NCBI RefSeq assembly: GCF_004210375.1
Contig: NC_134834.1
Span: forward strand, 145,113,009-145,177,008
Length of the DNA: 64,000 nt
DNA from: Tachypleus tridentatus
Lineage: Eukaryota; Arthropoda; Merostomata; Xiphosura; Limulidae
Reading direction: 5' to 3'
The notes under the pieces are model-generated. The model saw only the letters and a program-made list of their open reading frames with translations, had not been told where the DNA came from and made no database searches. Each line of letters opens with the position of its first letter. The stretch's first letter is position 1. Below are positions 10,301 through 57,305 of this stretch, in pieces. The position numbers were made by a program, and so were the translations under genes.

Positions 10301-10499
10301 GCACTGGCTATTGATTCATAAGATCTATATTTGTGACTAACTTAGTGGCTAGAATAAAGTAAAGTAAAATGGAAGCTTCAAATTGCCTATTTCTTTGCAC
10401 ATTCTCAGTATCTAATTACCAATGTAGCATCCGCCCCAAAAGCTAACTTATTTATGGAACATTGGTTTATAAAGTGACACTAAGCTGCCGCATACCAGT

Positions 10500-11181
10500 A
10501 ACAAAGGGAGGCTGTTGGATTTGCATCATTTGATGAATCTAAATCACCACTTCTGGTGGATTACTCTGAGAACTGCGCCTTCTCTTATCAAGAAAAAATT
10601 CGAAGTGACCATTGGAAGCAAGAAAAAGTCAGATCTTTCACTGCAGCTCTTTGGCATTCTGAGAAACTTCACTCCAAAGTTATTTCATCAGACAACTTGA
10701 CCCATACTAAAGAGATTCTGCTAGCATATATCAGCAAGTTACTAAATGATTTACCTACAACCATCACGGCAGTATTCATTAGGTCAGATGAGCCTGCACC
10801 ACAGTCCAAGAATTGCTACATAACTATTGCTCTTCATTCTCTGGAAAGAAAGCACAACATCAAAATTCACTGGATTTTGTCGCCTTCTCCCTCGGCAAGG
10901 GTCCAACACGGTGCAGGGAAAAGGCATGTTCGGCAGATGTCAAAACTCAGAAATCACTGGTTATTAATGGAACATCCTTTGCAGAAGATTCAGCAAAAAT
11001 GTTAAATGTTATAGATCCGCAGATGATAGTAACTGCAATAATTAAGACTAACAAATTACTAAAACTGGACGGGGTGTTTGCTATGAAAGATATAGCCCGA
11101 GTTCATCATCTGAAGATTAAAGATGACACCGTTTTCACATTTATGCTGGCCAAAGATGAAACTAGAAATTCAGCAAATTAG
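10500..11181 (+). pseudogene. Broken gene for a transposon-associated DDE-like domain
   Basis: One frame (10556-10858) reads DYSENCAFSYQEKIRSDHW, then SFTAALWH, VISSDNLTHTK, and IRSDEPAPQSKN. The order acidic-ENY-like / QxEIxxxHW / SD / SDxxxxQxKN matches a domain common in invertebrate transposon-derived proteins, where the usual form is WSDGAxSQFKN. After about 10858 the frame changes: the plus frame at 10813-11181 continues with FVAFSLGKGP (family form FFATSHGKGP) and ends in HHLKIKDDTVFTFMLAKDE. A single frame break near 10860-10880 and loss of key residues (RSDEPA for WSDGA) indicate a dead copy. No terminal repeats were found. The family identification is from memory of the motif pattern and is moderate. 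Confidence 0.55.
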
Positions 11182-11350
11182 CAGCACTTAGAGATAGGCG
11201 AAAGGGAGCATGACAAGATTGATGAAGTGATAGTTGTTGAGTACCAAGGGTAATCATCTTCTGGTGAGAAGACATCTATCGTTGAGCAGAACTATGAAGT
11301 GAACGTGATGGTCAAATCAGGTGACTTCTGGAAATGGACAGCAGGTGCTT

Positions 11351-11556
11351 GTTTGTTTTGAATTTCGTGCCGAGCTATCCAAGCAGTGAAAACTAGAGGA
11401 AAGGCATATAGTCATGATCACCCACTGCCAACTCTTGGGATACTCTTTACCAAGGATGAGTGGGATTAACAGTCACATTATAACATGGGATTGGATTCGA
11501 ACCGGGGATCCTCAGATTGTAAGTGAAGCATCCTATCCATCTGTCCATGCCAGACT
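11351..11556 (-). repeat. Diverged SINE-A copy
   Basis: Minus copy: TTTGAATTTCGTGCCGAGCT, CACCCACTGCCAACTCTTGGG, GAGTGGGATTAACAGTCACATTATAACA, box-B complement GGATTCGAACCGGGGATCC, ending CCATGCCAGAC. Confidence 0.75.
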
Positions 11557-12245
11557 TGCAAGGACTGAAAGAACAAAATAAAACAAACGACAGATGTAAC
11601 AACCCTCTTTAACATGTGTAGGTGCTACTGCTTTCCAGATTTGTCAAAGTTAAAATTAGGCCAATATAAAACATCATTAAGAATGTTGCCAAGAGCATGT
11701 TATTTTGTTAGTAGAAAAAATATGGTGTAGTAGGTTATTTGAATATAGATAAAATGACACTGTGGCAGGTTGTGGCCACACTGGATAAATTTTAACACTT
11801 GCACAGTGTTATGTAATCATTATTGTAATCTTTCATTATTTTTGTCATGTTCAGTCATTCATGTTTTTGATGCTATATAGCTTCTCTTTCATGAATATAA
11901 TGAGTCTTGTATGACTTGTAATTTTAGAAGAAATTTGGAACGAACATGACTAGAATTTTTTTCATGTCCCATTTTCCTTAACATCAATCATGCTCACATG
12001 TTTGACTGTCACGTATAGATAACGTAAGCTATAAATCATTTGTCAATGCATCTAGGCAGATTTTGTTCAGAGTTTGCTTCATTGAAAATATGAAGAATGA
12101 ATACAGATTGATAATGAGACTAGACCATTGTCTCTACTTCCTCAATGCTGTCAAACTGTAATATTAGTCACGATAATTGTCCAAAGACAGATGGTGATAA
12201 TTAAAAAAATGCTAGAAAACCTTCAGAAATTATCACAGGCACAAA
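11557..12245. other. AT-rich intergenic DNA
   Basis: No coding or RNA feature was recognised. Confidence 0.5.
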
Positions 12246-12539
12246 TTGATAATTAGTTTATACTTGAATTTCGCGCAAAGCTACTCGAGGTCTATCTGCG
12301 CTAGCCGTCCCTAATTTAGCAGTGTAAGACCAGAGGGAAGGCAGCTAGTCATCACCACCCACCGCCAACTCTTGGGCTACTCTTTTACCAACGAATAGTG
12401 GGATTGATCGTCACATTATAATGCCCCCACAGCTGAAAGGGCGAACAAGTTTGGTGCGACCGGAATTCGAACCCGCGACCTTCGGATTACGAGTCGAACG
12501 GCTTAACACACTTGACCATGCCAGGCCCTTGATAATTAG
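12246..12539 (-). mobile_element. SINE-A copy with exact target duplication
   Basis: Full-length minus copy (12257-12528), from GAATTTCGCGCAAAGCTACTC to CCATGCCAGGCC, flanked by the 11-bp direct repeat TTGATAATTAG at 12246-12256 and 12529-12539. The exact duplication shows a fairly young retroposition and fixes the element ends. Short frames inside it on both strands are not genes. Confidence 0.9.
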
Positions 12540-13059
12540 ACCAACTATTAATTTTGAACAGTTCGTATCCTGTATTAAACTTACTAATTTTGTTTTTTTA
12601 ACAGGATCAACTATTTCAGTTAGATACAACTCTGCACTGTTGTTATAAATTAATTTGTAGAATATTCAGCCTGATAAATTGGTATGTATAGTTAGAGTTC
12701 TTTTAAACGTATTTTAGATAGCTTTATGGATATGAAAGGCCACATTTCATTTGTTTCATGTTTTGGTAGCGATCTCAATGGGCCAAATGGCAACCTATCT
12801 TTTTTTCATACGTGTTTTGCTTATGTTCTAATGTATATTTACTAGACTTAGATACCAGCTTGTACACTTGCAGAATATTTCAAGGATACACCAAACAATA
12901 ACACTTATGAAAGTCTAGTATGATAAAGTCACTGTATCATGAACCAGTGCTAATCTTAAAACGTTTCATAATCTATTCAAGTTTAAAAGGTCCGACAGAG
13001 ATCAATTTCAACTACAAAATAGAAACAACGTATCAAGAATGCGATGGATGATTATCTTT
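12540..13059. other. AT-rich intergenic DNA
   Basis: No gene was recognised. It lies downstream of the minus-strand gene ending at 13088. Confidence 0.5.
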
Positions 13060-13065
13060 TTTATT
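13060..13065 (-). terminator. Candidate poly(A) signal AATAAA
   Basis: AATAAA on the minus strand (TTTATT on plus) about 23 nt after the stop codon of the gene at 13088-16194. The position is plausible, but the base composition makes chance matches common. Confidence 0.4.
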
Positions 13066-13087
13066 TAAAAAATTAATTAGTTGAGGT

Positions 13088-16000
13088 TCATTCAACTGAT
13101 TTTCTCCTGTCGCACATATCTGCAATATAGTCCAAAAAGTCTCTTTGTGGTGGATATTTATCTCCAGGATTAGTTTCGTTTGCTCCATAGTACTTACAGT
13201 CATATTTCAAGTGTAATGCACATTCCAGGATGCATAATGCCAAAGTGCTACAATTCAAAGTAACTTTGTTATCTATAAACATAATAAAACTTGCCACTGC
13301 TAGTACAGTATTAAGGCTATGATGCGTTTGCCAAACATAAAACATGCCAATAATGGTTACAAAAGTAAGTACAATAACCAGAAATGCTGATAAATGAATA
13401 AAAGTTGAGAGAGATTTTAATTTTTTTTTAATATTCTCTTTTAATGTAACTACACTAGCTCTCTTTTCTTCAGAGTCTGGGAAGCATTCAACATTTAGTT
13501 GATTTTTTGCCATTTGTATAATACCATACCAATGAGGTTTACGCTCTACATAAAGGTATATAACCCTCACCACGCTGAAGAGAAGAAAAAAACTACAATG
13601 GGTAGAGTTGGATGCAGAAAAATGTAAGTGGCTTTCTGAGAAACAAAATGCAACCACAACAAAAGTAAATAAAACAAACATGACATTCCATATAAAAGAC
13701 TTGGTTTTTGGAAAATAGTAACCAAATAAAATCAGACTTGGAAGGAACGTGCTAAATGTTTTATTATATCTGCCATTACTTGTTAAGAAATACCAATGCG
13801 CCATTGGCCCAAGAGTTAAAAGTAAAAGTATTTTGGAAATCCCACAAAAAGAAAGAAACAACAAGATCAAAATAACACAGTCACCTATAGTTCCTGTCAA
13901 CTCCAACATTCGAGATGGATATTTATTGTGATCGAAACAAAGTTTAAGGTGGAGGGCATATTTGCCTCCTTGCTCATCACAAAATTCTGCTACTTTGAGG
14001 TTAGCGTTTCAAACATAAAAAATGAAAACTGGATTGTAAAAAGAGCTGGAACGTCTTCCGGGTTTGTCAGTACAGCCCATATCTCGGAAAGAAGGAAGCA
14101 TACCTTTATCATTTCAAGAACAAACTTCTTACGGTACAGCAAAATTACACGACTAATCTCACTCCATGCAGTTTTCCAACTGATTTGACTTTCTGTCAAG
14201 AGTATCCTGGAAAAATAGCGTTTAAAGTCATATATGAGAATTACCAGTTTGTACACCACATGAATAAGAAAATAGAAGACCAAATAGTGCTGTGTGAATG
14301 GAAATGTGGCTGCAAACATGGCTGGAATGAAGTGACATAAACTAGCTCCTTGCAACAGAAACAGCACAAACCCCAAATGAAAACACGATAAAAGTTCTTT
14401 AAAACTAACCTCTTCAGAGTCGGCATCCTCCCTTTCAAGATTGAAATGTTGCTCCAATTTCATTTCTAGAAGTTGAGCAAAGGTTAAACAGTTATCAGAA
14501 GGAGTAACAGAATAAAGCGAGTCAATGTATATTTCTACAAGTAATTTAAGCAAATTTTCGATAGATACAGATGAGATAACTCCAACAACTCTCAGCTTCT
14601 CAGTGTCAACCTCATCCAGTGGTTGACACACCAAAAGGTTATGATCCACATCATCACATTCTCCAAACTGCTGCTGAATTTCCACGGTATGATAGTAATC
14701 ATAAGGTTTAGAGTAAGTGGTTTTGCATTCTTGATTATTATCAGTCTGAAGACTCCATGGCTGTAAGACAAGAGAAACGTGAGCAGCAACACTTTTTGTA
14801 CTCTGCCATCTGTAGACTGTATACTTTCTATTCTTGTAAAAGTCCAACATAAGCGATTTGCCTGTTACAACATACTTCAGGTTTTTCGGATTTAATGCTT
14901 TGACTAGCTCTGTAATAGAAAAAAATAAACAGAAATTAGAAAACTATTTAAAAATAATGAGCATTTTACTGCCAGACCATTACTCTTGTCTAATTTTACT
15001 TATCCACTTCCCTTCTGAAAGTGTGCAAAAATATCTGATACAGAAACGTGATTTAACAGAAAAACAAAACAGAAACAATTTTAGTGCTCACCATGAGCTG
15101 CTCCTCTTTCACTATAATTTAGCTTGTCCTTCATGGTTTCGGGAGTAGCATTATGGGCAATACGCAAATGTTCTACCAAAGCATTAATTGATAACGGTGG
15201 AAGAAACTCACAATAAGCACACAGACAAATTCCAGTTTCATGGCTTGTTATTGGAGGGTCCCACATGTTTGTATGCAAGTTATACCATCTCGACTTCAAC
15301 TGTTGAATTACTTTTCCTGTTGTTCCTGTACCTGTTGTGTGGTCGGTTAGGGTAGGTGGGAGAAGTTCTAAGGGTAGACCGAGTGTGGACAAATACCAGG
15401 TAGCAAAGTCTTGACAGTTCCACATAAAAATGTAATAATTTCCAAAATTGCAAATGATATTAACAGCTGTCATTACTAAATCTTGAAGAGAGATAACCTT
15501 TTTATTTTCATATAACCATCTGTTGATAAACAACTTGGTCCCTTCTACAATCCTTTCCAACCTGAAATCCACTTTTGCTGTTTTTTGATGTTCGTAAAAC
15601 AAGTGCCAAGCATATACTTCAAAGAATAAGAATTTTTTGTTACAGCAAAGGTAAATAACATCATCAAATGGAACATCATCCTTTAGTTTTCGATGATTTC
15701 TGAAATGATGCTCGGCCAGCTCTTTAAGTGTCGCTTTTTGAAACAAGCATGAATTATTTGGGCATTTAAACTTATTTTCAGTAAATGGATCTTTCTTTAT
15801 CACCAGCCCCAACTTAAAAACAATATTTGAATTCAAAATTTTTATTATTACATCTTTGTGGCCCCAATTTTGTCCTGCAATTCCAAAAATGATCTCCTTT
15901 GGTTCTGTAAGTGATACACCAGAAGATGCTATTTCTGTTAATGCATTATGCACAGAACTTTCCACTTCACAGCCCCTCTGCTCAACATAAAAATGTACTT

Positions 16001-16194
16001 TCTCTCTGGTATTCATAGTACCTGAAATCATAACATGGAAGTTCGTTGTTGAATAAGGAGAGGACCAATCTCCAGTATCACAAAAAAAGAAAAAAGCACA
16101 CACAAAATAACCAAAAAATCTCGTTCTAACTAAAAGTATGAAAATCTTGGGCACTTCAATTACCAAAACAGTTAGGATGTTTTTCCCCATTGAC
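13088..16194 (-). CDS. Zinc-finger and multi-pass membrane protein with NCQDF motif; spliced, with a frame break
   Basis: The family is not recognised. The gene reads on the minus strand in two exons. Exon 1 (15092-16194) starts at an ATG at 16190, or is entered through a TTCTTAG acceptor just before it. It ends CAT-G followed by GTGAGC. Exon 2 starts at 14909 after TCTATTACAG and continues in phase 1 as ELVKALNPKN. Exon 1 residues: hydrophobic N-terminus about 5-37; His52 in NFHVMI; Cys143/Cys148-His161/His166 finger-like; Cys182-183/His196/His201; N-C-Q-D-F at 258-262; and C324-x2-C327-x13-H341-x4-H346. The His...NCxxF order recalls NlpC/P60-LRAT papain-like folds, which is a hypothesis only. 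Exon 2 encodes several hydrophobic segments (LGFVLFLLQG, VFYFLIHVVY, ILILLFLSFCGI, FLVIVLTFVTIIG), so the C-terminal half is probably membrane-embedded. An in-frame TAG at 13990-13992 interrupts it, and the next frame continues convincingly (see separate entry). Total would be about 970 residues. Function unknown. Confidence 0.65.
13910..14010 (-). other. Frame break inside exon 2 of the membrane-protein gene
   Basis: The upstream frame ends at ...FETLTSK-stop (TAG at 13990-13992). The neighbouring frame is open from just upstream and reads KVAEFCDEQGGKY, LHLKLCFDHNKYPSR, then runs without a break into MLELTGTIGD at 13909. The text on both sides is protein-like, so a one-base change at about 13990-14005 is the simplest reading. 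No good donor or acceptor pair for a tiny intron was seen. It could be a mutation, an assembly error or recoding. Confidence 0.6.
14910..15091 (-). other. Intron, 182 bp
   Basis: Donor GTGAGC at 15091 downward, acceptor with the pyrimidine-rich run TTTTTTTCTATTACAG ending at 14910. Phase 1: exon 1 gives G, exon 2 gives AG, forming GAG (Glu). Joining the two frames yields RGAAHELVKAL with no interruption. Confidence 0.85.
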
Positions 16195-17316
16195 CTAAGA
16201 ATATAAAAATGCTACGCGTATATAATAACAATGATAAATTTTCTTCTACCTTGTTTTGTGTAAAACTTCCAAAAAAAACAAAACAGTAACATCTATACGT
16301 TTACACAAACTTAGAGTGTCTCGGGATATTTTTTAATTGAGAGCAAAATGGTTAAGGTAAGTTGTTTAATAACACTACGTAACAAAATGTTACTTTTTCT
16401 TGTTACTGGGCAGAAAGTGTTATTTTCCAATTGCTTATGCCTAAAATAAATAGAAAAAACCTATTTTTCTCTTAAAACTTTGCTTTTGTGACCTGGAAAC
16501 GTATAGGGAAACATGATGGGAGTATATTTGGGGGCTGATACATGAAAGTGATGTACATTACAGTCGCAAAATCTCAAAAAACTACTCACTTCTAAAGATT
16601 CTTGTATAACTTTAGTATAAATACATGTAAATCTTGATTCATATGTTGTTTTATTCAGACCTTATGTAAATGTAAATGTGCAAATTTGCCCGTTTTTACA
16701 TAGAAAATTGATTAATTTCTAAATTTCATTATCCAGGTCACAAAAGCAATGTTTGAAGGGAATAATGGCCATTTTCTGTACTTTTACAACATAAGCAATT
16801 AAGAAATAACACATACTATCCAGGAACAAAATTTGTGTTATATAGTGTAATTAGGTGACACTTTATTTAAAATGCTGTTCAATTTTCTCAAACATTCATA
16901 AAGGTGGGGAGGTGTTATTTTTGGAGTTTGAGGCTGTGGAGCAAAATGTTTCAAATTAAAGCTGTATTTAGATACACTAATTGTATTGTATGTTTATATC
17001 CTGCCTAAATCCATTGTTTTGGGTGCACTAATATAGGACAAATCAGGGCATTTGGAATTCATTAAGGTAAGTTACTAACTTCTCAAATTATAATAAGAAT
17101 GTAAACATTGGTAAAGGGAACTTAAGCATCTTGGGCAGGAGGAACTGATATCTGTGGTCATTTCTCGAAATTTTAAACGTCATTAGATCTTTGAGAAGGA
17201 CACAGCTTACAGCCTAGTCTAATTGGTAGATTCGGTTTTTTTGTTTGTTGACTTGCGCAACGCTAAACAAATGGCTATCTTCGCTGTTCCGATTAACCAC
17301 TGATGTTTATTTGTGT
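16195..17316. other. AT-rich DNA upstream of the membrane-protein gene
   Basis: No recognisable promoter element or further upstream exon could be supported. A first, non-coding exon may lie here. Confidence 0.4.
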
Positions 17317-17560
17317 CGAATTTCGCGCAAAGCTACACAAGGAATATCTACACTAGCCGTCCTTAATTTAGCAGTGCTAGTCATCACCACCCACCGCCAA
17401 CTCTTGGGCTTCTCTTTTTACCAACGAATAGTGGGATTGACCGTCACAATATAACGCCCCCACGGCTAAAAGGGCGAGCATGTTTGGCGCGACGAGGATG
17501 CGAACCCGCGACCCTCAGATTACAAGTCGCACGCCTTAACACACTTGGCCATGCCGGGCC
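17317..17560 (-). repeat. SINE-A copy
   Basis: Full minus copy, CGAATTTCGCGCAAAGCTAC to CCATGCCGGGCC, with box-B complement GGATGCGAACCCGCGACC. The central part around GCAGTGCTAGTCATCACC has lost a short stretch. Confidence 0.85.
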
Positions 17561-17700
17561 GTGGACTGAATTCCTGAAAGTGTTCCGTTTCAAGAGTAAA
17601 TAAAACCGAAATTAAGACTAACAGATATTTTTCTTGCTTTTTAAGTTCGTATCTAATTTTGTGTTGTAGTCTACAGAGATTATAATTCATATGTACATGA

Positions 17701-17968
17701 CCCGGCTTGGCCAGGAGGTTAAGGCACTCGACTCCTAATTCGAGAGTCGCGGGTTCGAATCCCCATCACACCAAACATGCTCGTCATTTCAGCCATGAGG
17801 CGTTAGAATGTGACGGTTAATTCCACTATTCGTTAGTAAAAGAGTAGCTCAAGAGTTGGCGGTGGGTGACGATGACTAGCTGCCTTCCCTCTAGTTTTAC
17901 ACTGTTATATTAGGAACAGCTAGCGCAGATAGTCTTTGGGTAGCTTTGCGCGAAATTCAAAGCAAACC
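17701..17968 (+). repeat. SINE-A copy
   Basis: Full plus copy: CCCGGCTTGGCCAGGAGGTTAAGG, GACTCCTAATTCGAGAG (changed anticodon-loop region), box B GGGTTCGAATCCCC, body CACTATTCGTTAGTAAAAGAG, 3' end GCGCGAAATTCAAAGCAAACC. Confidence 0.88.
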
Positions 17969-18167
17969 ATATGTACCTTTTTATTGACGTCACGACAGCA
18001 CAAATAGCACCGTTTATACGATATGCGACGTCCTTTTAGTATCTACAGGCTGACTAACAGACAACACACTTATGTATGTGGGTATGAGTGGTTAAAGCAG
18101 GTGACACCTGCAGGTAGCCTTTGGCCGGCCCCTCTTTCAGAAAAAATAAATTTCCTACTAACATTCA

Positions 18168-29148: not shown

Positions 29149-29205
29149 TGTTGGAGCGCGGGTTGGCTTTATAACATAACTGTGGATTTTGGGTTCGAAT
29201 CCAAA
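29149..29205 (+). repeat. tRNA-like scrap heading the tandem array
   Basis: GCGCGGGTTGGCTTTATAAC and GGGTTCGAATCC (perfect box-B consensus) lie immediately before the first 53-bp unit. It looks like the tRNA-derived head of a short element whose tail became the array. Inference. Confidence 0.45.
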
Positions 29206-31217
29206 GTACCAGTTTTATTGTGAAGTAACATCACACGTAGTACACACTATAGAGTTAAGTACCAGTTTTATTGTGAAGTAACATCACACGTAGTACACAC
29301 TAAAGAGTTAAGTACCACTTTTATTGTGAAGTAACATCACACGTAGTACACACTATAGAGTTAATTACCAGTTTTATTGTGAAGTAACATCACACGTAGT
29401 ACACACTAAAGAGTTAAATACCAGTTTTATTGTGAAGTAACATCACACGTAGTACACACTAAAGAGCTAAATACCAATTTATTGTGAAGTAACATCACAC
29501 GTAGTACACACTAAAGAGTTAAGTACCACTTTTATTGTGAAGTAACATCACACGTAGTACACACTAAAGAGTTAAGTACCAGTTTTATTCTGAAGTAACA
29601 TCACACGTAGTACACACTATAGAGTTAAGTAGCAGTTTTATTGTGAAGTAACATCACACGTAGTACACACCAAATAGTTAAATACCAGTTTTATTGTGAA
29701 GTAACATCACACGTAGTACACACTATTGAGTTAAGTACCAGTTTTATTGTGAAGTAACATCACACGTAGTACACACTAAAGAGTTAAATACCAGTTTTAT
29801 TGTGAAGTAACATCACACGTAGTACACACTAAAGAGCTAAATACCAATTTATTGTGAAGTAACATCACACGTAGTACACACTAAAGAGTTAAGTACCACT
29901 TTTATTGTGAAGTAACATCACACGTAGTACACACTAAAGAGTTAAGTACCACTTTTATTGTGAAGTAACATCACACGTAGTACACACTATAGAGTTAATT
30001 ACCAGTTTTATTGTGAAGTAACATCACACGTAGTACACACTAAAGAGTTAAATACCAGTTTTATTGTGAAGTAACATCACACGTAGTACACACTAAAGAG
30101 TTAAATACCAATTTTATTGTGAAGTAACATCACACGTAGTACACACTATAGAGTTAAGTACCAGTTTTATTGTGAAGTAACATCACACGTATTACACACT
30201 AAAGAGTTAAGTACCACTTTTATTGTGAAGTAACATCACACGTAGTACACACTATAGAGTTAATTACCAGTTTTATTGTGAAGTAACATCACACGTAGTA
30301 CACACTAAAGAGTTAAATACCAGTTTTATTGTGAAGTAACATCACACGTAGTACACACTAAAGAGTTAAGTACCACTTTTATTGTGAAGTAACATCACAC
30401 GTAGTACACACTAAAGAGTTAAATACCAGTTTTATTGTGAAGTAACATCACACGTAGTACACACTAAAGAGTTAAATACCAGTTTTATTGTGAAGTAACA
30501 TCACACGTAGTACACACTAAAGAGTTAAGTACCAGTTTTATTGTGAAGTAACATCACACGTAGTACACACTAAATAGTTAAATACAAGTTTTATTCTGTA
30601 GTAACATCACACGTAGTACACACTAAAGAGTTAAGTACCACTTTTATTGTGAAGTAACATCACACGTAGTACACACTAAAGAGTTAAATACCAGTTTTAT
30701 TGTGAAGTAACATCACACGTAGTACACACTAAAGAGTTAAATACCAGTTTTATTGTGAAGTAGCATCACACGTAGTACACACTAAAGAGTTAAGTACCAC
30801 TTTTATTGTGAAGTAACATCACACGTAGTACACACTAAAGAGTTAAGTACCAGTTTTATTGTGAAACAACATCACACGTAGTACACACTAAAGAGCTAAA
30901 TACCAATTTATTGTGAAGTAACATCACACGTAGTACACACTAAAGAGATAAATACCAGTTTTATTGTAAAGTAACATCACACGTACTACACACCAAAGAG
31001 TTAAGTACCATTTTTATTGTGAAGTAACATCACACGTAGTACACACTAAAGAGTTAAGTAGCAGTTTTATTGTGAAGTAACATCACACGTAGTACACACT
31101 AAAGAGCTAAATACCAGTTTTATTGTGAAGTAACATCACACGTAGTACACACTAAAGAGTTAAATACTAGTTTTATTGTGAAGTAACATCACACGTAGTA
31201 CACACTAAAGATACTTT
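29206..31217. repeat. Minisatellite: 53-bp unit, about 38 copies
   Basis: Units run AGTACCAGTTTTATTGTGAA, GTAACATCACACGTAGTACA, CACTAAAGAGTTA. I count 38 copies. They vary mainly at CAGT/CACT/CAAT in the first part and at TAAAGAG/TATAGAG/AGCTA at the end; three copies have a one-base deletion (CAATTTATTG). The array ends in an incomplete unit at about 31217. Confidence 0.95.
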
Positions 31218-36717: not shown

Positions 36718-37194
36718 TTATACTTTTCCTAGCCTTGATGGATTTCTATTGAAGTTTGAAGACATTGTTGATTTTTTAGGTGATTTGACCATGATCTTTT
36801 CTAGACTCGAAAATCTATTAACACCACCTCCGGTTGAAGAATCTACGGATATGTTGACGACGTCATGTTTTAGAGGATCCAGTGACCTAACGTTAATGCC
36901 TTCATTTAATGTATCCACGGGTCTTGCAAGAAAGCCTACTCTAAGAGATTCTGGTGATATGACAAAAGGGCCTCCTCCAGTTAAAGTATAACTGCCAAAG
37001 CGATCTCCATTTAAATTATTTAGTGATCTTTTAACAACGATTTTTCCACTTAGAGGGTCCAAAGACTGAATAATTGTTCCTTCATTGGATGATTCTAAAA
37101 ACCTTGAAAACTTGCTAGGACTACTGGTTCTTTGATGTAATAATCTATAGAGCTTAGAGAAAGCAATGCTGAAAACTCTGTTGTGCCGAATATT
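36718..37194 (-). CDS. Coding exon 2 of the orcokinin-like precursor
   Basis: 158 codons plus TAA. The acceptor is TTGTTAATTTCAG on minus, ending at 37195. The frame stays open upstream of the Leu-Asp-Pro at 37062 back to the acceptor (LHQRTSSPSKFSRFLESSNE). Serine-rich and basic throughout. The C-terminal part (SSLEKIMVKSPKK, NFNRNPSRLGKV) carries further basic cleavage candidates. Confidence 0.65.
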   Translation of the reverse strand, partial: NIRHNRVFSIAFSKLYRLLHQRTSSPSKFSRFLESSNEGTIIQSLDPLSGKIVVKRSLNNLNGDRFGSYTLTGGGPFVISPESLRVGFLARPVDTLNEGINVRSLDPLKHDVVNISVDSSTGGGVNRFSSLEKIMVKSPKKSTMSSNFNRNPSRLGKV

Positions 37195-40100
37195 CTGAAA
37201 TTAACAATAACAAAACATAAATTACTGCTTATTTTGTTTCATGTACTGAAAATTTGTTCGTCAAAAAACTTTAATACACAGTGATGTCGAGAAAACACAC
37301 TTGTAGAGAAAAAATATATACGTAAAACGACTCGTTTGGGTTGAGAAATGTTTTTACGTTCTTCGGTCATCGTCAGGTTCACAAATAAAGAAAGAAGTAA
37401 CTGACCGGAAGCTGAACACATGTTTGAAAGGGGTTGTGTAACAGAGTGTCGGAATGTAGAGGGCGTGCTTAGATGTTTGAATATATAATTTTATATTATT
37501 TATTTTATTATTATTATTTATTATATTATTTTTAATATAAGTATGAAGGTGTTCCTTTGTATTGGTTTATTTGGGCTTGAGTTGTTGTATAAGTAAGGCT
37601 TCTTTAATTTTGCGTTTGTTTATGTTTGTTTCTTTATTTAGTATTTGAGTGTTTTCTATGGTTATTGTTGTGTTTATTTGACTTTATGTTCAACAACCAC
37701 AACTATATACAAAGAAATGGCCTAAGCATGGGCAACCCAGTATCACCAGTTCTAGCCAATATTTTTGTGACACAAGTTGAAACACAAGCAATTAACACAG
37801 GATTACATCAACCACTATACTGGTACAGATATGTAGATGACACGATTGCGGAATTCACATCTACAGAACACACACTTAATTTTTTCAATCACATTAACGC
37901 TATACATCCCAACATCAGCTTTACATGTGAACAAGAAGAAAGCAATCAAATATTATTTCTTAACCTCAAAATTACAAGAACTGATACACAATTTGAAACA
38001 GAAATCCACCAAAAAATCACCCATATTGGACTATACATTCCTTGGGACTCAGCACATGAAACAAAACAAAAACTCAACATACTAAGAAACCAAATAAACA
38101 CAGCCATAAAATTAACTGATGAGGATAGTATAATGTTTTATACGCACACACCTAGACAGAAAGCAAAATCAACCAATAAAAGTAAATATACCTCACGATT
38201 CAAAAAATCACAAAACCATATACTGCTGCATACCATATTTTCCCGACATCAGCAGAAAATAACCAACATCTGGCAAAAACCAATAACAAAATATGACATT
38301 CCAGTTAATACCAAATTTATTCAAAAACCAGGCACAAAACTGAGGTCTATACTAAGTAAAAACTACACTGACAAACACCACACCAACATTATTTATAAAA
38401 CACAATGTGATAACTGCCACGACTTTTATATTGGAGAAACAAGTAGCAAAATGGAAACCAGATTCAAAAAACAAAAAGTCACCTTCACATGTTTTCGAAC
38501 ACTGCAAGTCAAATAAACGCAACAATAACCATAGAAAGCACCTAAATACTGAATAAAGAAACAAACATAAACAAACGCAAAATTAAAGAAGCCTTACTTA
38601 TACAACAACTCAAGCCCAAAATAAACCAATACAAAGGAACACCTTTATACCTATATGAAAAATAATATAATGAATAATAATAATAAAGTAAATAATATAA
38701 AATTATATATTCAAACATCTAAGCACGCCCTCTACATTCCGACACTCAGTTACACAACCCCTTTCAAACATGTGTTCAGCTTCCGGTCAGTTACCTCTTT
38801 CTTTCTTTGTGAACCTGACGTTGACCGAAGAAGGTCGAAACGTTGTTCGCTTCTCTACGTAAAAATTTTTCTCAATCGAAACGAGCCGTTTTTACATATA
38901 TATTAAACTTTAATACACTGTTATTATTTGGATCTGTGACTTACGTTATGCAAAGAAATAACCGCTTTATTTTAATACGTTTATGCAATATTGTCTCTTC
39001 AAATAAAATGTCAAACCAAGATACGCTGAAAATGAATATACAGAATTCACTATGGGTCAGTCACACTTAATATAATTTTTTAAGTGTTACGTTTTGGAAT
39101 TTTATTATTTCTGTTGATCACACCCAATTTGACTGTCGTGATTACATATTATTTATGATACTGGGTTTCCTATTGTATCAAGTTCTTATATTAAATTAGG
39201 TCAGATATTTTGAGAAATTTTTATACCACTGTGTGTGGGCATCGACGTCCAAGACCTAATTTTTAAGTAGACTAAAAGCAAATACATTCAGTAAAGCTAT
39301 ATGGGAGGATTTGATAGGTATGTGGAAGAATGGGATTTCTGTGACGACCTCAGTTTATTCAGTTACGTTTCCAATAAAAATAGCTGCTAGAAGGTATGTT
39401 CAGCTTTATAGCAACGTAGTTTTTGGGAGGAAAGGATTGAGGGGTTGAAGGATTCTCTTTCGTAATTGGGTTTTCACTGTGCGGATTGATTTATAAGTAT
39501 CTATGAAGATCATCAGAGACTTCATTTTTTGAAATTTCACGTCTTTTGTCTCCACAGCAATATTTTGGTTTGAAGACCGATTCATGTTAAAACTACATAC
39601 ACATATCGGTATATTTAGCCAATTTTAACGAAAGGCCTTATTCTGCTGAAACATTCAACAAGCTGGTTTGCTGTTTCATACGGGTTTCTGTCATGTCAAC
39701 GTACTTTTATAAGGGTCATGCTTTATAACCACTAAACTCACAACTATCTTTTGTAGCACTTTTATGAATGTGTAAATATAGTTTAGTATAGCACACTTGA
39801 TGAATGTGTAAATATCGTTTATCGAAACTTACATGGTAAAATTTCTGTCGTCACACCCAGACTAATGGGTTTGTTCATGGAAGATTTAGAGATGGGTGTA
39901 GATATTCGCTTTTATTTCTATACGTCTACAAATTGGGCTTGTTACAAACTTTATAATTTTTACATTAATTCTGTCACGCACAACCGACATTAGCTTTAAG
40001 TACCACCAGTGGTACTGGTATCACAGAATGAGAATCTTTGGATCAGGATGAAGTTTGTAATATTGTGTAAATAGTTATATATAGTTTCAGAGCAGTTACT

Positions 40101-43100
40101 TTATTCACGGCTGCCTCAGCATTTATACCTATCATGAAACACGACAGTGGTTCATAATAGGAATGGCAAGTAATTACATTAAATCCCAATGAAACGCAAA
40201 GAGCAAGAAACATTTTAAATATTCATTTCAAACAACACTTTAACACCTCTAGTACTGACTGCTAAGGCTGCACACGTATATAAATGCTCAGTAAAGCGCA
40301 CATGTTAGACTTACAAGGAAAATAAAATCAGCTCAAAAATCAGTTCCAGCCTACAACAAAAACAACTTGATATATTTCACCCAAAACTCCTTGTAAAATA
40401 CTAAATAAAGTGCTGGGAAGGTTTTAGGGTTAATGAAAAGTCGACGTGTTTCTTCTATATTTTGTATAAGCAATAAAACACAATTTTAATGTAGACGATG
40501 TTATTATAACACCTTGGAGAGAAATTTATTTCAAATATGTGGTGTTCCTTTAAAAACCTTAAGTACAGGGTTAAGAAGGAATTACAAGCCAGTGATAGAT
40601 GAACATTACTTTACTGTAACATATGGATAATCAATGTATTTTACACTATAGTGTATAAAACATTAATTACAATTGGTAACTTTTGGTTTGTTTTGAATTT
40701 CGCGCAAACCTACACGAGGGCTATCTGCGCTAGCCGTCCCTAATTTAGCAGTGTAAAACTAGAGGGAAGGCGACTAGTCATCACCACCCACCGCCAACTC
40801 TTGGGCTACTCTTTTTACCAACGAATGTGGGTTTGACCGTAACATTATAACGTCCCCACGGCTAAAAGGAAGCATTTTTGGTGTGACGGGGATTCAAACT
40901 CGAGATCCTCGAATTACGAGTCGAGTGCATTAACCACCTGGCCATGCCGGGCCATATGAAGTGAAGGAGGGAAAAAACAAAATGGAATCTTTGATAGCCA
41001 TGGCTGTAATTAAATTTCAAATCGGTCAAGAGATGGAGCTATAAGCTAAACGTTTCTACTTGAACAACAACAAAAAATACCTATTCTGTGATTCTGCGAC
41101 TAGAAATAATACACATATTATTAACTTTTATTAAATACATTCGTTGAATAATTACTTTAAAAAACACAACTATTTTTTGAAAGCGATGCTTTAGACGTAT
41201 GTGTTTTATTTGAAAAGTCGACTTTTCTACCGGTACAATTTTATGCGTGCTTAGTGAGAGTTGTGTCTTAGTCTTGGCATGTATTTACCAGTTGCTATGG
41301 CTCCCTAGTGGCATAGCGGAATATCCGCGAATTTCTAAAGTAAGAAACCGGGTTTTGGTACCTGTGATGGCAGAGCACATATGTTTCGTTATGTAACTAC
41401 AAACAAACTAAAACCGATTCTCGTGTGTTATAAATAGATATCTTAGGTACATAGAAACCATAAATGCTTACTATATTCTCAAACAAACCTCCATAATAAT
41501 ATTCAGCTGCAGTTTAACATTTTACATCTCAAACTAATGCGATCAAATAGTCAACAACTACAGTAAATCATCATGAACCATATCGGGTATCTACTAGCTA
41601 AGTTGAGCAAAAAAAGCAGCCAGGAAAGAAGATAAAAACTGGAAATTTAAAAACCTTCAAATAAGGCTTGTAAAAAAAAAATTGTGGTTTAAGCACATAG
41701 CTACAGAATGGGCTATTTGTGCTCCTCCCATCACAACTATCGAAACCCATTTTCTAGCTTTATAAGTCTACAGACACGGCACTGCGCCTTAGGGGAGCTA
41801 CAAAACGTAAACAAATATGGCTAGCTGGAGAGAATCTCGACATTATTTATTCAAACTACAAATCCATATTTTGGCTTCACCAAATGTAATCCCAGGTAAC
41901 AACAGCATGGAACCAAAATAGGGGTTTGTAGTTTGAATAAATAATGTATACAGTATCTACATACAGTCATGTGAAAAAGTTAGGACATCCTATGAAAGCT
42001 TGTGTATTTTTGTAACATTTATGGATATATAGATATTTAATCTCAATTTTAACAATTCATTCATTCATTCACCTCTCGATTCCATCAAGGAACATAGGGC
42101 CGCACTCGCTTGCAGATTCTTCAACCGGTATTTAAGTGAGTAGGTTGTTAGCCCACTGCACCGAACCGTCCATAATTTAGTAGTGTAAGACTAGAAGGAA
42201 GGCAGCTAGTCATCACCACCCACCGCCAACTCTTGGGTTACTCTTTTACCACCGAATAGTGGGATTGACCGTAACATTATAACGCCCCCACGGCTGGGCG
42301 TGCGGGCATGTTTGGCGCGACGCGGGCGCGAACCCGCAACCCTCGGATTACGAGTCTCACGCCTTACGCGCTTGGCCATGCCGGGCCAATTTTAACAATA
42401 CTGAGAGATTATTGGAATATAACTAAACAATTAAAACTGAAGAAAAGACTTTTCAAGATCTTCTGTAAATGTAATTCTACAAAAATGCATATTCTAACTG
42501 AGGAAAAACAGTGGCTTTCTTTCTTTTAATAATGACACTTTATATGTACAAAAATATTCTTATTTATTTGAACGTTTATTTTTACTTTTAAATTTAAAGT
42601 TACTTATAACATAGTTTATTTTCTCCGAATATTTGCACAAAACTACTCAAGGAGGAGTCGTCTTGAATGCTGAACCGATAGAATAGAAACAAAGAAGCTC
42701 GTTAATAGTACACGCCTCCAACTACAATCTGGCTATACTATCCTGACTAAACTGTTACTTATATAGTGCACTGGCCCGGCATGGCTAGGTGGTTAAAGTA
42801 CTCGACTCGTAATCTGACGGTCGCAGATTCGAATCTCCGTTACACCAAACATGCTCGCCCTTTCAGCCGTGGGAGCACTATAATGTGGCGGTCAATTCCA
42901 CTATTCGTTGGTGAAAGAGTAGCTCAAGAGTTGGCGGTGAATGGTGATAACTAGCTGCCTTCCCTCCAGTCTTACACTGCTATGTCAGGGGCGCAGATAG
43001 CTCTCGTGTAGCTTTGCGCGAAATTCAAAACAAACCAAACCAATCTAGTGAACCTACAAAACTGTTTCGAAGCGCCATCTCATGGCAACTGGACGTAAAT

Positions 43101-45091
43101 CTTGGATACTTTGATTCCCAGACCACATGCCAGACACTAGGCTACGTCACTCTCACATCAGATAGAAGTTCTTTTTTGTGATGTCATAGTATACGTACCG
43201 GAAATGACGAAATGATGTCGCAAAATATTTGGTTGGAACCGGAAGAAAAGTAGATATTTCTACTACCGGTTACGATGCAAACAATCAAACTGACGCCTTG
43301 TTTGTTTTTTTGTTGCTATTTTAACAAACAGATGTTTGTAAGTCTCCCAACAAAATGTATCTCAGAACGGCTGGTATTGGTATTAACATTTTTATTGATA
43401 AGGAGAGAACAACGTTTCGACCTTTCTAGGTCATCTTCAGGTTAAGAAAGAGAGAGTTTGAAAGTTTTAATACGCATACCAGTCTTTCTGAGATACATTT
43501 TTATTTCAAGTGAGTTTCTCGTCATCAAGAAGTCTTCTAACAGTGAATCACACAAATTAAGTAAGTAATGGTGTGATGACCAAATATGGAATCGTTTGTA
43601 GTAGGTTGTACCGGATTAATATTGGACATATATTTAGCACTACGGTTACGAAGAGAAAAATATATTAGAAAAAAATGTGATATTACAAAACAAACCAATG
43701 GATCTAATAAATAGTTTTTATTTTCAGTATCGCTAAACCTGCTAGGAACACCTGTTTCAATATCCATATAATTTCTTTTTTACATACTATTGTTACAGTT
43801 CTTAAATATTTTTACATTTACAGTCACGATATCAGATTTAATATTCTTATCTTGAAATTGTCATTTTTTAATTTCTTTTTTATTTACAGACAAAACAAAA
43901 GATTTCCATTTAATAATAAATAAATTGTCCTTTTTTGACGATAACATTACAGGAGCTGAATAGTTCCAGTCGTTAGTTATGGAATTCTTGTCCGTAATGG
44001 TGAAAGAAGTGTCCACGGATGACGGTAATAAAAATCTTATTATTTTATTAAAGGTGGATTATCATTAAGCTTAAGGGTTATAATATTAAAATTCGTGTTG
44101 TGCATAACACAAGTAGTTCATTGAGCAGCTTTGTGGTTGAATTAAACAAAGAAACAGCTGAGGTAGTCTGTGGGAAATTATTTGGTGAGCTGAGAAAGTG
44201 TAGAAAGTATACGTTATTAGCCCTCAACACAACATTCAATAATCAATACTTGCTCGGTGTTATTGATACTTTCTATACAAGTGTAAAAATTAAACGTAAA
44301 AAAACACCCCACTGAATGAGGTCTGGTGTGAAGTTTTAGTTACTTATGTGTTTGAGTTTTGAAAGTACTTATTATGATAAATAATGTTGTTTTAAATATA
44401 GTTTTGTCTTATTTATTTATGTTATTGCACAAACTGAATGATCTGTTTATAGTTCAAGGGTTAATGTCAGAGGAAATTAGCATGGACGAAAAAAACAACA
44501 ACAACTGTTAAGTGACGTTTCAGAATCTTTTGATCTAGACAGGTCCACTATGCATATGAATATTAATATGGAACTTATTGAATAATGAAATTAATAATTA
44601 ATTTTAATTCACAGTCAGAGCAAAACTAAAAGTCAGCCTGGTATTCAATAAAGCTAAATAAATAATGTTTGTCACGTTTCTACTCATAAAGATTAGGATG
44701 CATTATTTTACCAGCTACGTACTCTCGCTGTTAACGATATTTTCGGCTGTAATCCCAATAATATCTCATGGGGTTTTGCCAGCTTATGATATTTAAATTT
44801 ATCCTAAATACGTATTAAACTAACAATACAAAACAGTCTTTATAAACTAATTCATTAGTAGGAGATCACTTGTTGAACTAGGTCATCTTGGTTTACCAAT
44901 TTGATTTAATGAAGAATGTTACAAACATTCTTTTTAGTTTTCAGAGTAATAAGTTTTACATATTTATGTAAACCAAAAAGTAAAATAAAACCTTTTTACT
45001 CTAAGCTTCTCACCTGTGTTGGTCTACATTGAAACATCTGGATCGTCAGGGCTATCAATAAGACGATGATGCCTACTGCACGAACTTCCAT
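36718..45091 (-). CDS. Secreted orcokinin-like (B-type) neuropeptide precursor, two coding exons
   Basis: Coding exon 1 (45091 down to 45014) encodes MEVRAVGIIVLLIALTIQMF-QCRPTQ: a short charged start, a long hydrophobic core and a likely cleavage after QC. It ends CAG followed by GTGAG. Coding exon 2 (37194 down to 36718, TAA stop) follows AATTTCAG. Both junctions are phase 0, giving 184 residues. After a basic spacer (NIRHNRVFSIAFSKLYRLL) it contains SLDPLSGKIVV-KR, SLNNLNGDRFGSYTL, PVDTLNEGINV-R and SLDPLKHDVVN. Dibasic KR and KK and single Arg sites separate the units, as in neuropeptide precursors. The (S)LDxLSG units resemble FDSLSG peptides of the orcokinin exon at 51475-52014, the next coding unit upstream on the same strand. 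I infer a divergent orcokinin-B/orcomyotropin-like gene; no canonical NFDEID unit is present. An opposite-strand frame at 36749-36991 is a shadow. Confidence 0.6.
37350..37382 (-). ncRNA. Hammerhead-like motif in left Penelope terminal repeat
   Basis: Minus strand: GTGAAC (stem I strand), intact core CTGACGA, then TGACCGAAGAACGT. The stem II partner and the GAAA box are mutated (AACGTAAAAAC), so this copy is probably inactive. Confidence 0.5.
37626..38516 (+). pseudogene. Truncated Penelope reverse transcriptase with GIY-YIG start
   Basis: The frame enters from the terminal repeat, so its first ~20 residues are not native. Recognisable from about residue 27: YIQRNGLSMGNPVSPVLANI (RT block with GxSMG.P.SP.LANI) and YWYRYVDDTIAEF (YVDD catalytic motif, two Asp). 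Then LNFFNHINAIHPNISFTCEQ and FLNLKI, followed by a Lys-rich connector. It ends IIYKTQCDNCHDFYIGETSS, which is the start of the GIY-YIG endonuclease (C-x2-C plus YIGET) typical of this group. The N-terminal half of the RT and the rest of the nuclease are missing, so it is a dead 5'-truncated copy. Nothing host-like is seen. Confidence 0.88.
38809..38850 (+). ncRNA. Hammerhead-like motif in right Penelope terminal repeat
   Basis: GTGAAC (38809-38814) can pair with GTTCGC (38845-38850) as stem I. CTGACG begins the core; the expected A9 is T at 38821. GACC/GGTC form stem II with loop GAAGAA, followed by GAAA (38837-38840) and a self-complementary ACGT as a tiny stem III. An extra T sits before stem II. 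The left copy keeps A9, so the ancestral element probably had a complete core. Confidence 0.55.
38919..40685. other. Intronic AT-rich DNA
   Basis: No exon or repeat was recognised. Confidence 0.45.
40686..40953 (-). repeat. SINE-A copy
   Basis: GTTTTGAATTTCGCGCAAAC to GGCCATGCCGGGCC, with CACCACCCACCGCCAACTC. Close to the family consensus. Confidence 0.9.
40954..41299. other. Intronic DNA
   Basis: Nothing was recognised. Confidence 0.4.
41300..41408 (+). repeat. SINE-C copy
   Basis: CTCCCTAGTGGCATAGCGGAA, CGGGTTTTGGTACC, GATGGCAGAGCACATATG, TTTCGTTATGTAACTACAAAC. Confidence 0.7.
41686..41808 (-). repeat. SINE-C copy
   Basis: GTGGTTTAAGCACATAGCTAC, ATTTGTGCTCCTCCCATCAC, ATCGAAACCCATTTTCTAGC, TATAAGTCTACAGACACGGC. 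Confidence 0.75.
41842..41945. repeat. Foldback hairpin with 36-bp arms
   Basis: Left arm ATTATTTATTCAAACTACAA..., right arm ...TTGTAGTTTGAATAAATAAT. The arms pair over about 36 bp with a few mismatches around a 31-bp loop. A mariner-like end begins about 17 bp further on. Confidence 0.8.
41962..42560 (+). mobile_element. Tc1/mariner-like element fragment split by a SINE
   Basis: Begins ACAGTCATGTGAAAAAGTTA-GG, the style of terminal repeat seen in Tc1/mariner elements. It continues through AATCTCAATTTTAACAAT, is interrupted by a SINE (42057-42387), and resumes with AATTTTAACAATACTGAGAG. No transposase was found. The superfamily is suggested by recall of the end sequence, not proven. Confidence 0.45.
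42045..42399 (-). mobile_element. SINE-A variant with chimeric 3' tail, nested, with target duplication
   Basis: Direct repeats AATTTTAACAAT at 42045-42056 and 42388-42399 flank it exactly. The tRNA end (right) belongs to the subfamily with GCGCGACGCGGGCGCGAACC. Past CCGTCCATAATTTAG the usual 3' end is replaced by about 110 bp (ATTCTTCAACCGGTATTTAAG, CTCTCGATTCCATCAAGGAAC) ending in (ATTC)n on plus, that is (GAAT)n on minus. This looks like a LINE-derived 3' tail. Confidence 0.85.
42774..43036 (+). repeat. SINE-A copy
   Basis: GCCCGGCATGGCTAGGTGGTTAAAG, GCAGATTCGAATCTCCG, CACTATTCGTTGGTGAAAGAG, GTGTAGCTTTGCGCGAAATTC. A small deletion lies before GCAGATAGC. Confidence 0.9.
43355..43503 (-). 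mobile_element. 150-bp inverted-repeat element carrying a hammerhead-like core
   Basis: Ends AAAATGTATCTCAGAAC and TTTCTGAGATACATTTT are inverted repeats; the next CTGGTATTGGTATTAA and AATACGCATACCAG also pair. The middle (43401-43446) on minus reads AAC-CTGAAGA-TGACC, TAGAAAGGTC, GAAACGTTGTTC, the same plan as in the Penelope terminal repeats. Probably a non-autonomous Penelope relative. Confidence 0.7.
43405..43446 (-). ncRNA. Hammerhead-like ribozyme motif
   Basis: Core CTGAAGA (43440 down to 43434) fits CUGANGA. Stem II is GACC/GGTC, then GAAA (43418-43415) and the self-complementary ACGT typical of the very short stem III in Penelope-type hammerheads. Stem I is only AAC/GTT, and one extra T precedes stem II. 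Activity is uncertain. Confidence 0.55.
43504..45008. other. Intronic AT-rich DNA
   Basis: A plus-strand frame at 44100-44315 (71 codons) and a minus frame at 43537-43767 have no recognised domains. No exon could be supported. Confidence 0.4.
45014..45091 (-). CDS. Signal-peptide exon of the orcokinin-like precursor
   Basis: ATG in good context (AAGATGG) followed by 25 codons with hydrophobic core AVGIIVLLIALTIQMF, ending CAG with donor GTGAGAAG. Exactly 78 nt, so phase 0. Too short to stand out as a frame, but its length, composition and donor are what a neuropeptide first coding exon should have. Confidence 0.65.
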
Positions 45092-50305: not shown

Positions 50306-50464
50306 ATTTGACAAAACATGTTGTGTGTTGTTTTCTAAAGCATACACAATGGAGTTCTTTCGATTGCTACAGATTACCGCGAAAGTAGATTTTTTTCATT
50401 TGTTAGGAATATAGTAGGAAGAGATGAACTCAAAACAAAGTGTCTTGTATGTTGATGAAAAAAG

Positions 50465-50830
50465 CGATTATTTTAACAATACGTTTTTAAGTTGTTAAGG
50501 GCTTTCACTAAAGTTGATTAAAAAGACTATTGTTTTAACAATGCATTCTTAAACTGTGAAGAAATCTTACTCATCTTTGTTGTTTAAAAACTATTGTTTT
50601 AACAATACCTTCTTAAACTTTCAAGGAATCCCGCTCATGTTGTTAAAAAGAACTATTGTTTTAACAATGCATTCTTAAACTTTCAAGGAATCCCGCTCAT
50701 GTTGTTAAAAAGAACTATTGTTTTAACAATGCATTCTTAAACTTTCAAGGAATCACGCTCATATATGTTGTTAAAAGAACTATTGTTTTAACAATGTGTT
50801 TTAAAGCTATCAAACACTCCTACTAATGTT
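50465..50830. repeat. Tandem repeat, about 62-bp unit, 5-6 copies
   Basis: Unit AAAGAACTATTGTTTTAACA, ATGCATTCTTAAACTTTCAA, GGAATCCCGCTCATGTTGTT. Each unit contains the small palindrome ATTGTTTTAACAAT. The middle copies are nearly identical, the outer ones diverged. Confidence 0.9.
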
Positions 50831-51474: not shown

Positions 51475-52014
51475 CTACACGTGGTAATTTTCGTTATACA
51501 ATCGGCGTTTGAGAAAACCCTCGAATCCAGCGTTGTCGATCTCGTCAATATTTCTTTTAGGATGGTCAGCTAGACTGTCGCGACGCTTCAGAAAACTTCT
51601 AAATCCAGCGTTGTCGATCTCGTCCATGTTGCGTTTGGCAAATCCATTGAATCCAACGTTGTCGATTTCATCAAAGTTTCTCTTGCTTGCACCCAAGGCT
51701 GCTCCACTCAGGGAATCGAACCTTTTGGAATAACCCAGTGACGACCCACTTAAGGAGTCGAAACTTCTCTTCGAATTCGATGCTTTAACGAGAGAATTTC
51801 CTCTTATAGAAACCAAAACTTTCATGATATCATTCCCTTTGAAGCTGTCGAAGAGCCGAAGAAATCTCCCTTCACTTACCTCATCTAAAACTCGCAAGAT
51901 GTCACTACTTTCGAAGATATCCAGCGCACGATTCTTCATCAAGAAACGCAAGACGTCGCCACCTGTCAGAGCATGTAGCTCGTAGAAAGTTTGGTACATA
52001 GGCTGATGACTAAC
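51475..52014 (-). CDS. Orcokinin precursor, mature-peptide exon
   Basis: Orcokinins are secreted arthropod neuropeptides that act on gut muscle and in the brain. The exon opens after TTACAG at 52015, reads [19 protein letters not shown] and ends with TAG (179 codons). The first 80 residues are a spacer ([20 protein letters not shown]...). Then, separated by KR sites, come [61 protein letters not shown] and [14 protein letters not shown]. The NxDEIDxxGFxxF pattern is the orcokinin signature, while the two FDSLSG peptides are a second class like orcokinin-B/orcomyotropin-related peptides. The ATG at 51999 is internal and not a convincing start, as no signal peptide follows. The signal exon must lie upstream (above 52014) and was not found. 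The opposite-strand frame at 51509-51733 is a shadow. Confidence 0.93.
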
Positions 52015-54329: not shown

Positions 54330-54912
54330 CTTATCAAGCGCTCATCTTTGTATATGAGTGATATATATTTCCAACTTGTAATTGTCTTCTGGTTATGTAT
54401 GCTTCCAGTCCAGTGTTATATATATTTGCAGTTCATCTTTGTATATGGGGGATATAGTTTCCCAGCTTATTCTTGTGTGTGAGTGATGTATGTTCCCAGT
54501 TCAATTTTGTTTATGGATGATGTCCGTTCACAGTTCATCTTTGTCTACCGGTAATATATATTCTCAGTTCATCCTTGTTTATGGATAATGTATGTTCCCA
54601 GTTCAACCTTGTTTATGGATATTGTTTGTTCCCAGTTCATCCCTATATATGGGTGATGTCAGCTCCCTGTTCATCCTTGTGCACTGGTGATATGTGTTCT
54701 CAGTTCATCCTTGTTTATGGGTGATATATGTTCCAAGTTCATCCTTGTTATGGGTAATGTCTGTTCCCAGTTCATCTTTGTCTACGAGTGATACATATTC
54801 CCAGTTCATCTTTGTCTACGAGTGATACATATTTCCAGTTCATCGTTGTTATGGTTAATGTCTCTTTCCAGTTCATCCTTGTATATGTGTTATGTATGTT
54901 CTTATTGTGAGC
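54330..54912. repeat. Minisatellite: about 34-36-bp unit, about 16 copies
   Basis: Unit TATGGGTGATATATGTTCCC, AGTTCATCCTTGTT, with many substitutions and small indels between copies. Confidence 0.88.
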
Positions 54913-56570: not shown

Positions 56571-56764
56571 TACTTATATATATGACTACCAATCCAGTTC
56601 TTAGAGTTCACGTATCAGCAATTATATTCATCATATGATCGACACTAGCGCTTATCACGTGAGTGAGTCAGCAACTTCACATCATTGTAATACTCTATAG
56701 TGAGTATGGTTAAATTTACTTATGTATAAACCCTTACTTTATAGGTCTTTATTACTGCTGAACT

Positions 56765-57305
56765 AGCAAAACAAGAGGGTTACTTGATGAACTATGTGTA
56801 ATCCAACTAACAGAAGCAATGGATCACTTAATCATCTAGATATAATCTACTTAACAATAGAAGAGGGTTACTTGATGATTTATGTGTAACTCAACTAACA
56901 GGACCAGTGTATCACTTGACATCCAGATGTAATCTAACTAACATAACAAGAGGGTTACTTGATGATCTTTATATAATCTAACTAACAAACCCAGTGGATC
57001 TATTGATCAACCACATATAATGTGACTAACAGAACAAGGCAATTGCTTGATGATCTATGTATAATCCTACTAACAGAAGCAGTAGATCACCTGATCATCC
57101 AGATGTAATCTATCTAACACAACAACAGGGTTACTTGATGGTCTATCTGTAATCCAACTAGCAGGACCAGTGGATCACTTCACCATCCAGATATATCTAG
57201 CTAACAATATAATGATCTATGTGTAATTTAACTAACAGAAGCACTAGATCACTTGGTCATCCAAATATAATGTAGCTAACAAAACAAGAAGGCCGCTTGA
57301 TTAAC
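56765..57305. repeat. Minisatellite: about 88-bp unit of two related halves
   Basis: Unit contains AACAAGAGGGTTACTTGATG, ATCTATGTGTAATCCAACTA, ACAGAAGCAGTGGATCACTT, GATCATCCAGATGTAATCTA. The two halves share TTGAT.AT and TAATC.A.CTAACA, so it began as an approximately 44-bp unit. About six copies. Confidence 0.88.

Follow-up and report, generated by a model that had tools for sequence, protein, structure and literature searches.

A probable diverged relative of stand-alone orcokinin-B-type genes downstream of an orcokinin gene in the horseshoe crab Tachypleus tridentatus

Orcokinin B is named for insects, a myriapod, and crustaceans in PMC4237046, and insect orcokinin B precursors are reported to be cut mostly at single arginines (PMC6585902). 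The present analysis concerns 64,000 nucleotides of contig NC_134834.1 of T. tridentatus (assembly GCF_004210375.1), corresponding to C10:145113009-145177008 and called the window, and a two-exon gene on its minus strand. The gene is probably a separate one that encodes a neuropeptide precursor and has diverged from its paralogs, the stand-alone orcokinin-B-type genes. It lies downstream of an orcokinin exon on the same strand.

Structure of the gene and its paralog on C6

The coding part of exon 1 (45014..45091, minus strand) begins with an ATG at 45091 and comprises 26 codons (78 nt), encoding the putative signal peptide MEVRAVGIIVLLIALTIQMFQCRPTQ and ending in phase 0 with CAG before the donor GTGAGA. 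Across an intron (37195..45013, minus strand), the coding part of exon 2 and its stop (36718..37194, minus strand) follow the acceptor TTTCAG and open with AAT. This exon is also in phase 0 and has 158 codons (477 nt with the stop), closed by TAA at 36720-36718. The joined product is 184 aa long, with a hydrophobic 26-residue leader ending QCRPTQ, followed by 158 residues that form an N-segment, 12-residue B-type-like units, and a tail; no NFDEID (A-type) peptides are found among these 158 residues. The leader, predicted to be a signal peptide by its hydrophobicity and occupying an exon of its own, has 20 of 26 residues the same in Limulus. Two AATAAA polyadenylation-type signals, recognized by motif only, lie 3′ of the stop (36666-36661 and 36582-36577, minus strand). 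A TATA-like motif at 45181-45175 carries little weight, as that strand has 24 copies of TATAAAA within the window.

The joined protein matches two gene models from end to end: T. tridentatus LOC143228209, of 184 aa, at 98% identity and 100% coverage, and Limulus LOC111083922, of 204 aa, at 66% identity and 99% coverage. The Limulus protein has two additional residues (EQ) at the exon junction. Given the full-length matches, the predicted junction is the one used in these gene models and a chance pairing of two exons is ruled out. The two phase-0 minus-strand exons, GTGAG donor, and TTTCAG acceptor proposed in an earlier note on this DNA, made from the letters alone, are therefore exact. Both models are named just “uncharacterized,” so peptide surveys that work by name would miss the gene. 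LOC143228209 shares three residue changes with a second assembled copy of the locus at C10:127.38 Mb. It represents the window gene itself, taken from a duplicate region of this assembly, and was set aside as cross-species support; the independent evidence thus comes from Limulus and from a paralog on C6. A crude scan for hydrophobic exons that start with ATG and end at a phase-0 donor, covering 10 kb upstream of exon 2, returned three candidates and ranked 45091-45014 first. The same scan overlooked the signal exon of the C6 gene and is therefore not a sensitive test.

The C6 paralog emerged from a search of the animal's own 2.17 Gb assembly, in which exon 2 matched C6:159635279-159636040 at 39–41% identity. 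The match falls in a B-type main exon of 282 aa (C6:159636058-159635210, minus strand) that starts ENENHRNKLFNNAIFKLFHKSNSPSLR and holds 19 pattern-counted 12-residue units, most like SLDPLGGGTVVR or SLDSLGGGTVVR with a single Arg, one of them (SLAALGDSKFSS) degenerate, and no NFDEID peptides. Its signal exon (C6:159641056-159640982, minus strand) encodes MGTNLRIILLSMSLTVQLVCCRPTQ and is followed by GTGAGT. The two genes follow a common plan, in which a signal exon ending CRPTQ in phase 0 precedes an N-segment, 12-residue units in an array, and a tail. By eye the tails look similar, with SPK after the array and GKV or GKVE at the end. For the signal peptide and N-segment together, the Smith–Waterman (SW) score against the C6 protein is 98 for Limulus, where shuffles reach at most 49, and 80 for the window protein, where they reach at most 52 (0/1000 shuffles attain the real score in either case). 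With the signal removed, the Limulus N-segment still scores 61 (shuffle maximum 40, 0/1000). The earlier view of a stand-alone B-type-like gene without NFDEID gains support from this paralog, with its same two-exon plan and clean SLDPLGGGTVVR-like array. The array is also where the two genes differ: C6, with its many near-identical tandem paracopies, mostly clean units with a single Arg, illustrates a less decayed member, and the window copy is left with only one or two clear units. As many paracopies are a defining feature of B precursors, the window gene is filed as a diverged relative and not as a canonical member.

Gene order links the two loci as well. The C6 B gene lies 21 kb downstream of a C6 orcokinin gene, in the order and orientation seen in the window. 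The C6 series, all on the minus strand, is orcokinin signal exon (start 159672862), orcokinin main exon (end 159661857), B signal exon, and B exon. The C10 series, also minus, is orcokinin signal exon, orcokinin exon (52014-51475), B-like signal exon (45091-45014), and exon 2 (37194-36718); here the orcokinin signal exon is outside the window, starting at C10:145181732 (equivalent to 68724-68656 in window numbering). The neighbouring orcokinin main exon (51475..52014, minus strand) encodes B-like N-terminal units, SFDSLSG/FDSLSG, and NFDEID/NMDEID/NIDEID peptides. The placing of a second orcokinin-like gene downstream of the orcokinin exon thus recurs, with the same order and strand, on both chromosomes. 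Because three rounds of genome duplication are reported for horseshoe crabs (PMC7815833), the orcokinin-then-B pairs on C6 and C10 are probably ohnologs that arose via those duplications.

Relation to orcokinin units

The resemblance of exon 2 to orcokinin precursors was measured with a matrix of 40 distinct 12-residue units from 11 arachnid orcokinin precursors picked from 38 matches, the units being selected by a pattern demanding L/V, D/A, and G. The matrix consensus is x-L-D-x-L-x-G-G-x-V-L-R. Among the 158 stop-to-stop open reading frames of ≥60 aa in the window, exon 2 and the orcokinin exon rank as the first two, with the third far lower, and the only four 12-mers in the window to reach 10 bits are divided equally between them. 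The best-preserved unit, SLDPLSGKIVVK (37030..37065, minus strand; 17.2 bits), is the top-scoring 12-mer across the six frames and is followed by R, at the putative KR cleavage site 37032-37027; the second clear unit is SVDSSTGGGVNR (36814..36849, minus strand; 10.4 bits). The score of exon 2 was reached by 0/2000 shuffles, and a control piece of open reading frame scored like its own 500 shuffles. Elsewhere, the C6 unit SLDPLGGGTVVR attains 25.6 bits and two insect units (PMC4237046) attain 18.9 and 15.9 bits. The orcokinin exon also scores strongly on this matrix (0/2000 shuffles), so that B-type units appear to build the N-terminal part of the orcokinin precursors of arachnids and horseshoe crabs as well; for spiders and mites, the N-terminal repeats are accordingly suggested to be of this type. 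Pfam matched no family to the window-gene or orcokinin precursor at E up to 1.

Repetition is clear in the Limulus protein, whose 12-residue periodicity has a z of 5.5 with its best lag reached by 0/1000 shuffles. The repeated (S)LDxLSG-like units that had been read from the window exon are borne out as far as SLDPLSGKIVVK and SVDSSTGGGVNR score on the matrix, but as a repeat they are weak. The proposed KR/KK/R spacers likewise hold in part: one dibasic KR and single Arg residues do stand between units, but the KK is in the tail, and one Arg, that preceding PVDTL, has Pro as its next residue. All other basic sites of the window protein are single.

Several comparisons speak against a relationship with B-type precursors. 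The 12-residue periodicity of the window protein (z 1.9) is not significant, its best lag being matched by 37% of 1000 shuffles, and its N-segment without the signal scores only SW 38 against C6, reached by 4/1000 shuffles. In BLASTP, neither exon 2 (E 0.31) nor the Limulus protein (E 0.77) gives a significant match to the orcokinin exon of the window. Alignments with 17 orcokinin precursors are mixed: 0/300 shuffles reached the real score in 5/17 cases for exon 2 and 8/17 for Limulus. Exon 2 is weak against ticks P0038 and P0039, springtail P0021, and horseshoe crab P0005 (real score reached by 137, 47, 25, and 14 of 300 shuffles, respectively), as is the Limulus protein against tick P0038 (81 of 300). 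Profile-profile comparison with spider precursors yields a probability of 16.6% and an E of 0.0015 over 31 columns. Lastly, a profile of the window protein and its two matches, run over 2476 candidates with an E limit of 10, found no further relative, and no arachnid one.

Alternative explanations and proposed processing

A decayed array invites the explanation that the gene is a relic becoming a pseudogene, which has lost its repeats since duplication and makes nothing useful. Only one or two clear units are left, and exon 2 differs between the assembled copies by three nonsynonymous and two synonymous changes in 474 bases (0 in the 78-base signal exon), which show no sign of constraint and give no support for selection. 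An open frame is also not rare enough under neutral drift, being retained in 56/1000 simulated runs to the Limulus identity; the simulation modelled substitutions only, and including insertions and deletions would lower this figure. Against a relic, the frame is intact in both assembled copies and in Limulus, and the KR after the best unit is kept in Limulus. Conservation is, moreover, uneven, with Limulus keeping 46/56 positions at residues 27-82 vs 59/102 at residues 83-184 (Fisher p 0.0026), which is not expected from drift alone; by segment, identity is 25/31 at residues 27-57, 21/25 at 58-82, and 15/19 at 117-135. Purifying selection is in this way supported only indirectly, and a relic is judged unlikely.

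As a diverged neuropeptide-precursor gene, the window gene most likely works like canonical B precursors. It would be expressed, and its product secreted, processed, and used in signalling, with exon 1 supplying the signal peptide and exon 2 the N-segment, the x-L-D-x-L-x-G-G-x-V-V-R unit array, and the tail. In the C6 precursor, cuts at single Arg would release many SLDPLGGGTVV-like peptides. The window precursor would be cut at the KR and a few single Arg, the plausible sites being the KR after SLDPLSGKIVV and the single Arg before SLDPLK and after SVDSSTGGGVN. Its main product would then be a peptide ending SLDPLSGKIVV, accompanied by one or two pieces of the SLDPL or SVDSS kind. We infer the former to be the likeliest product because residues 27-57 and 58-82 are well conserved with Limulus.

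Alternatively, the repeats could belong to a secreted protein or form a spacer domain that is not processed into peptides. Spider orcokinin precursors have contiguous 12-residue units with few basic sites, and the Arg before Pro in the window copy fits such a protein. Most units of the C6 gene and of a further B-type gene at C10:80.88 Mb nevertheless end in Arg, as reported for insect orcokinin B precursors (PMC6585902), making an unprocessed protein quite improbable. Least probable is that exon 2 is an alternative B exon of the upstream orcokinin gene and 45091-45014 its alternative first exon: insects are described as obtaining A and B from one alternatively spliced gene (PMC4237046), and with all exons on one strand in phase 0 the junction would be in frame, yet the T. 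tridentatus and Limulus gene models start with the window gene's own signal exon, a similar signal exon belongs to the C6 B gene, and the B gene at C10:80.88 Mb shows a candidate one with no A-type match in its vicinity.

Genomic context and comparison with known systems

The C10:80.88 Mb gene is a third B-only gene of about 40 units (C10:80875063-80877027, minus strand). Its frame of 654 residues contains 32 twelve-residue and seven eleven-residue pieces like SLDGINGDNVIR, with single Arg, besides longer and shorter ones. The candidate signal exon (80879128-80879057, minus strand) encodes MMILWLAFFTVIFHGQLCWTRPRQ, ending RPRQ before GTAAGA, and ranks second of four candidates by hydrophobicity. 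None of 16 A-type matches lies near this gene, in a search that scores the best candidates only. Three A-type frames have no B-type array in the stretch examined: one of seven NFDEID and one SFDEID at C6:159.622 Mb (plus strand), on the opposite strand to the C6 B-type exon and 13 kb away; a long NFDEID run with a frame change midway at C10:143.40 Mb (minus strand); and NFDEID repeats at C8:97.29 Mb (plus strand). Additional A-type matches are located at C10:128.43 and C10:189.97 Mb. Genome matches numbered 171, from which those at C6, C10:80.88 Mb, C2:21.3 Mb, and C9:10.1 Mb were examined; the C2 and C9 matches are simple DNA repeats and were rejected as family members.

The second assembled copy, C10:127340854-127411154, is near-identical to 29204-69376 in window numbering and lies 17.8 Mb away. 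Collinearity extends over some 39 kb, introns included, at ~98.5–99% identity, and the stretch is flanked by two 500-N gaps; the next contig starts with a 99.3% match to window 9665-18016, out of order. The gaps, near-identity extending through introns, and out-of-order contig point away from a true duplication, and the copy is probably an unpurged haplotig. The odd tail of protein model P0006 is not an orcokinin isoform: compared with the window, the orcokinin copy at 127.39 Mb is one base short, and the resulting frameshift explains the model.

Within the intron of the window gene, on the opposite strand (37608-38516, plus strand), is a reverse-transcriptase-like frame with a match to Pfam RVT_1 (E 1.7e-6) just under the curated cut-off; we take it to be similar to Penelope-like elements. 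Long open frames at 13088-16211 (minus strand) may represent another gene, one of them with a weak LRAT-domain match (E 0.0017) under the curated cut-off. Tandem repeat arrays occupy 29204-31211, 54429-54901, 50449-50796, and 56761-57206, the largest with 37.9 copies of a 53-base unit.

As far as the literature searched shows, it is new that a horseshoe crab has orcokinin genes of separate kinds: A-only, B-only, and mixed. No earlier description of stand-alone orcokinin B genes in chelicerates was found at what was mostly title and abstract level, with the Veenstra 2016 chelicerate neuropeptide survey (cited in PMC4888303) outside the scope of the search. Clear B-type arrays as separate genes in a horseshoe crab extend beyond the groups named in PMC4237046, and they make it testable which came first, the A/B split by splicing, as in insects, or by separate genes. 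Tentatively, the horseshoe crab orcokinin system may have split into mixed, A-only, and B-only genes, with an orcokinin-then-B pair on each of two chromosomes and one or more unlinked B-only genes; the window gene, its paracopies lost, might act via one longer peptide of N-segment and first unit, a new B-derived ligand.

Among known systems, the cephalopod orcokinin-B-like (FLGamide) precursor is reported to carry B-like DS(L/I)GGG units on a precursor of its own (PMC9410093), in another phylum and with a likeness judged by the published motif. The arachnid orcokinin precursors of spiders, a mite, and ticks have N-terminal units like SLDRLGGGEVIR and ILDPLTGG, which exon 2 resembles; unlike the window gene, they contain NFDEID peptides within the same precursor. 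Insect orcokinin B, as described in PMC4237046 and PMC6585902, shares with the window gene 12-residue units of the type SLDGIGGGNLVG, the lack of NFDEID, and, as predicted for the window gene, cleavage mostly at single Arg; it differs in having many paracopies. The arrangement of the genes also differs, in that a single alternatively spliced gene supplies both A and B in insects, whereas the horseshoe crab B-type genes appear to have signal exons of their own.

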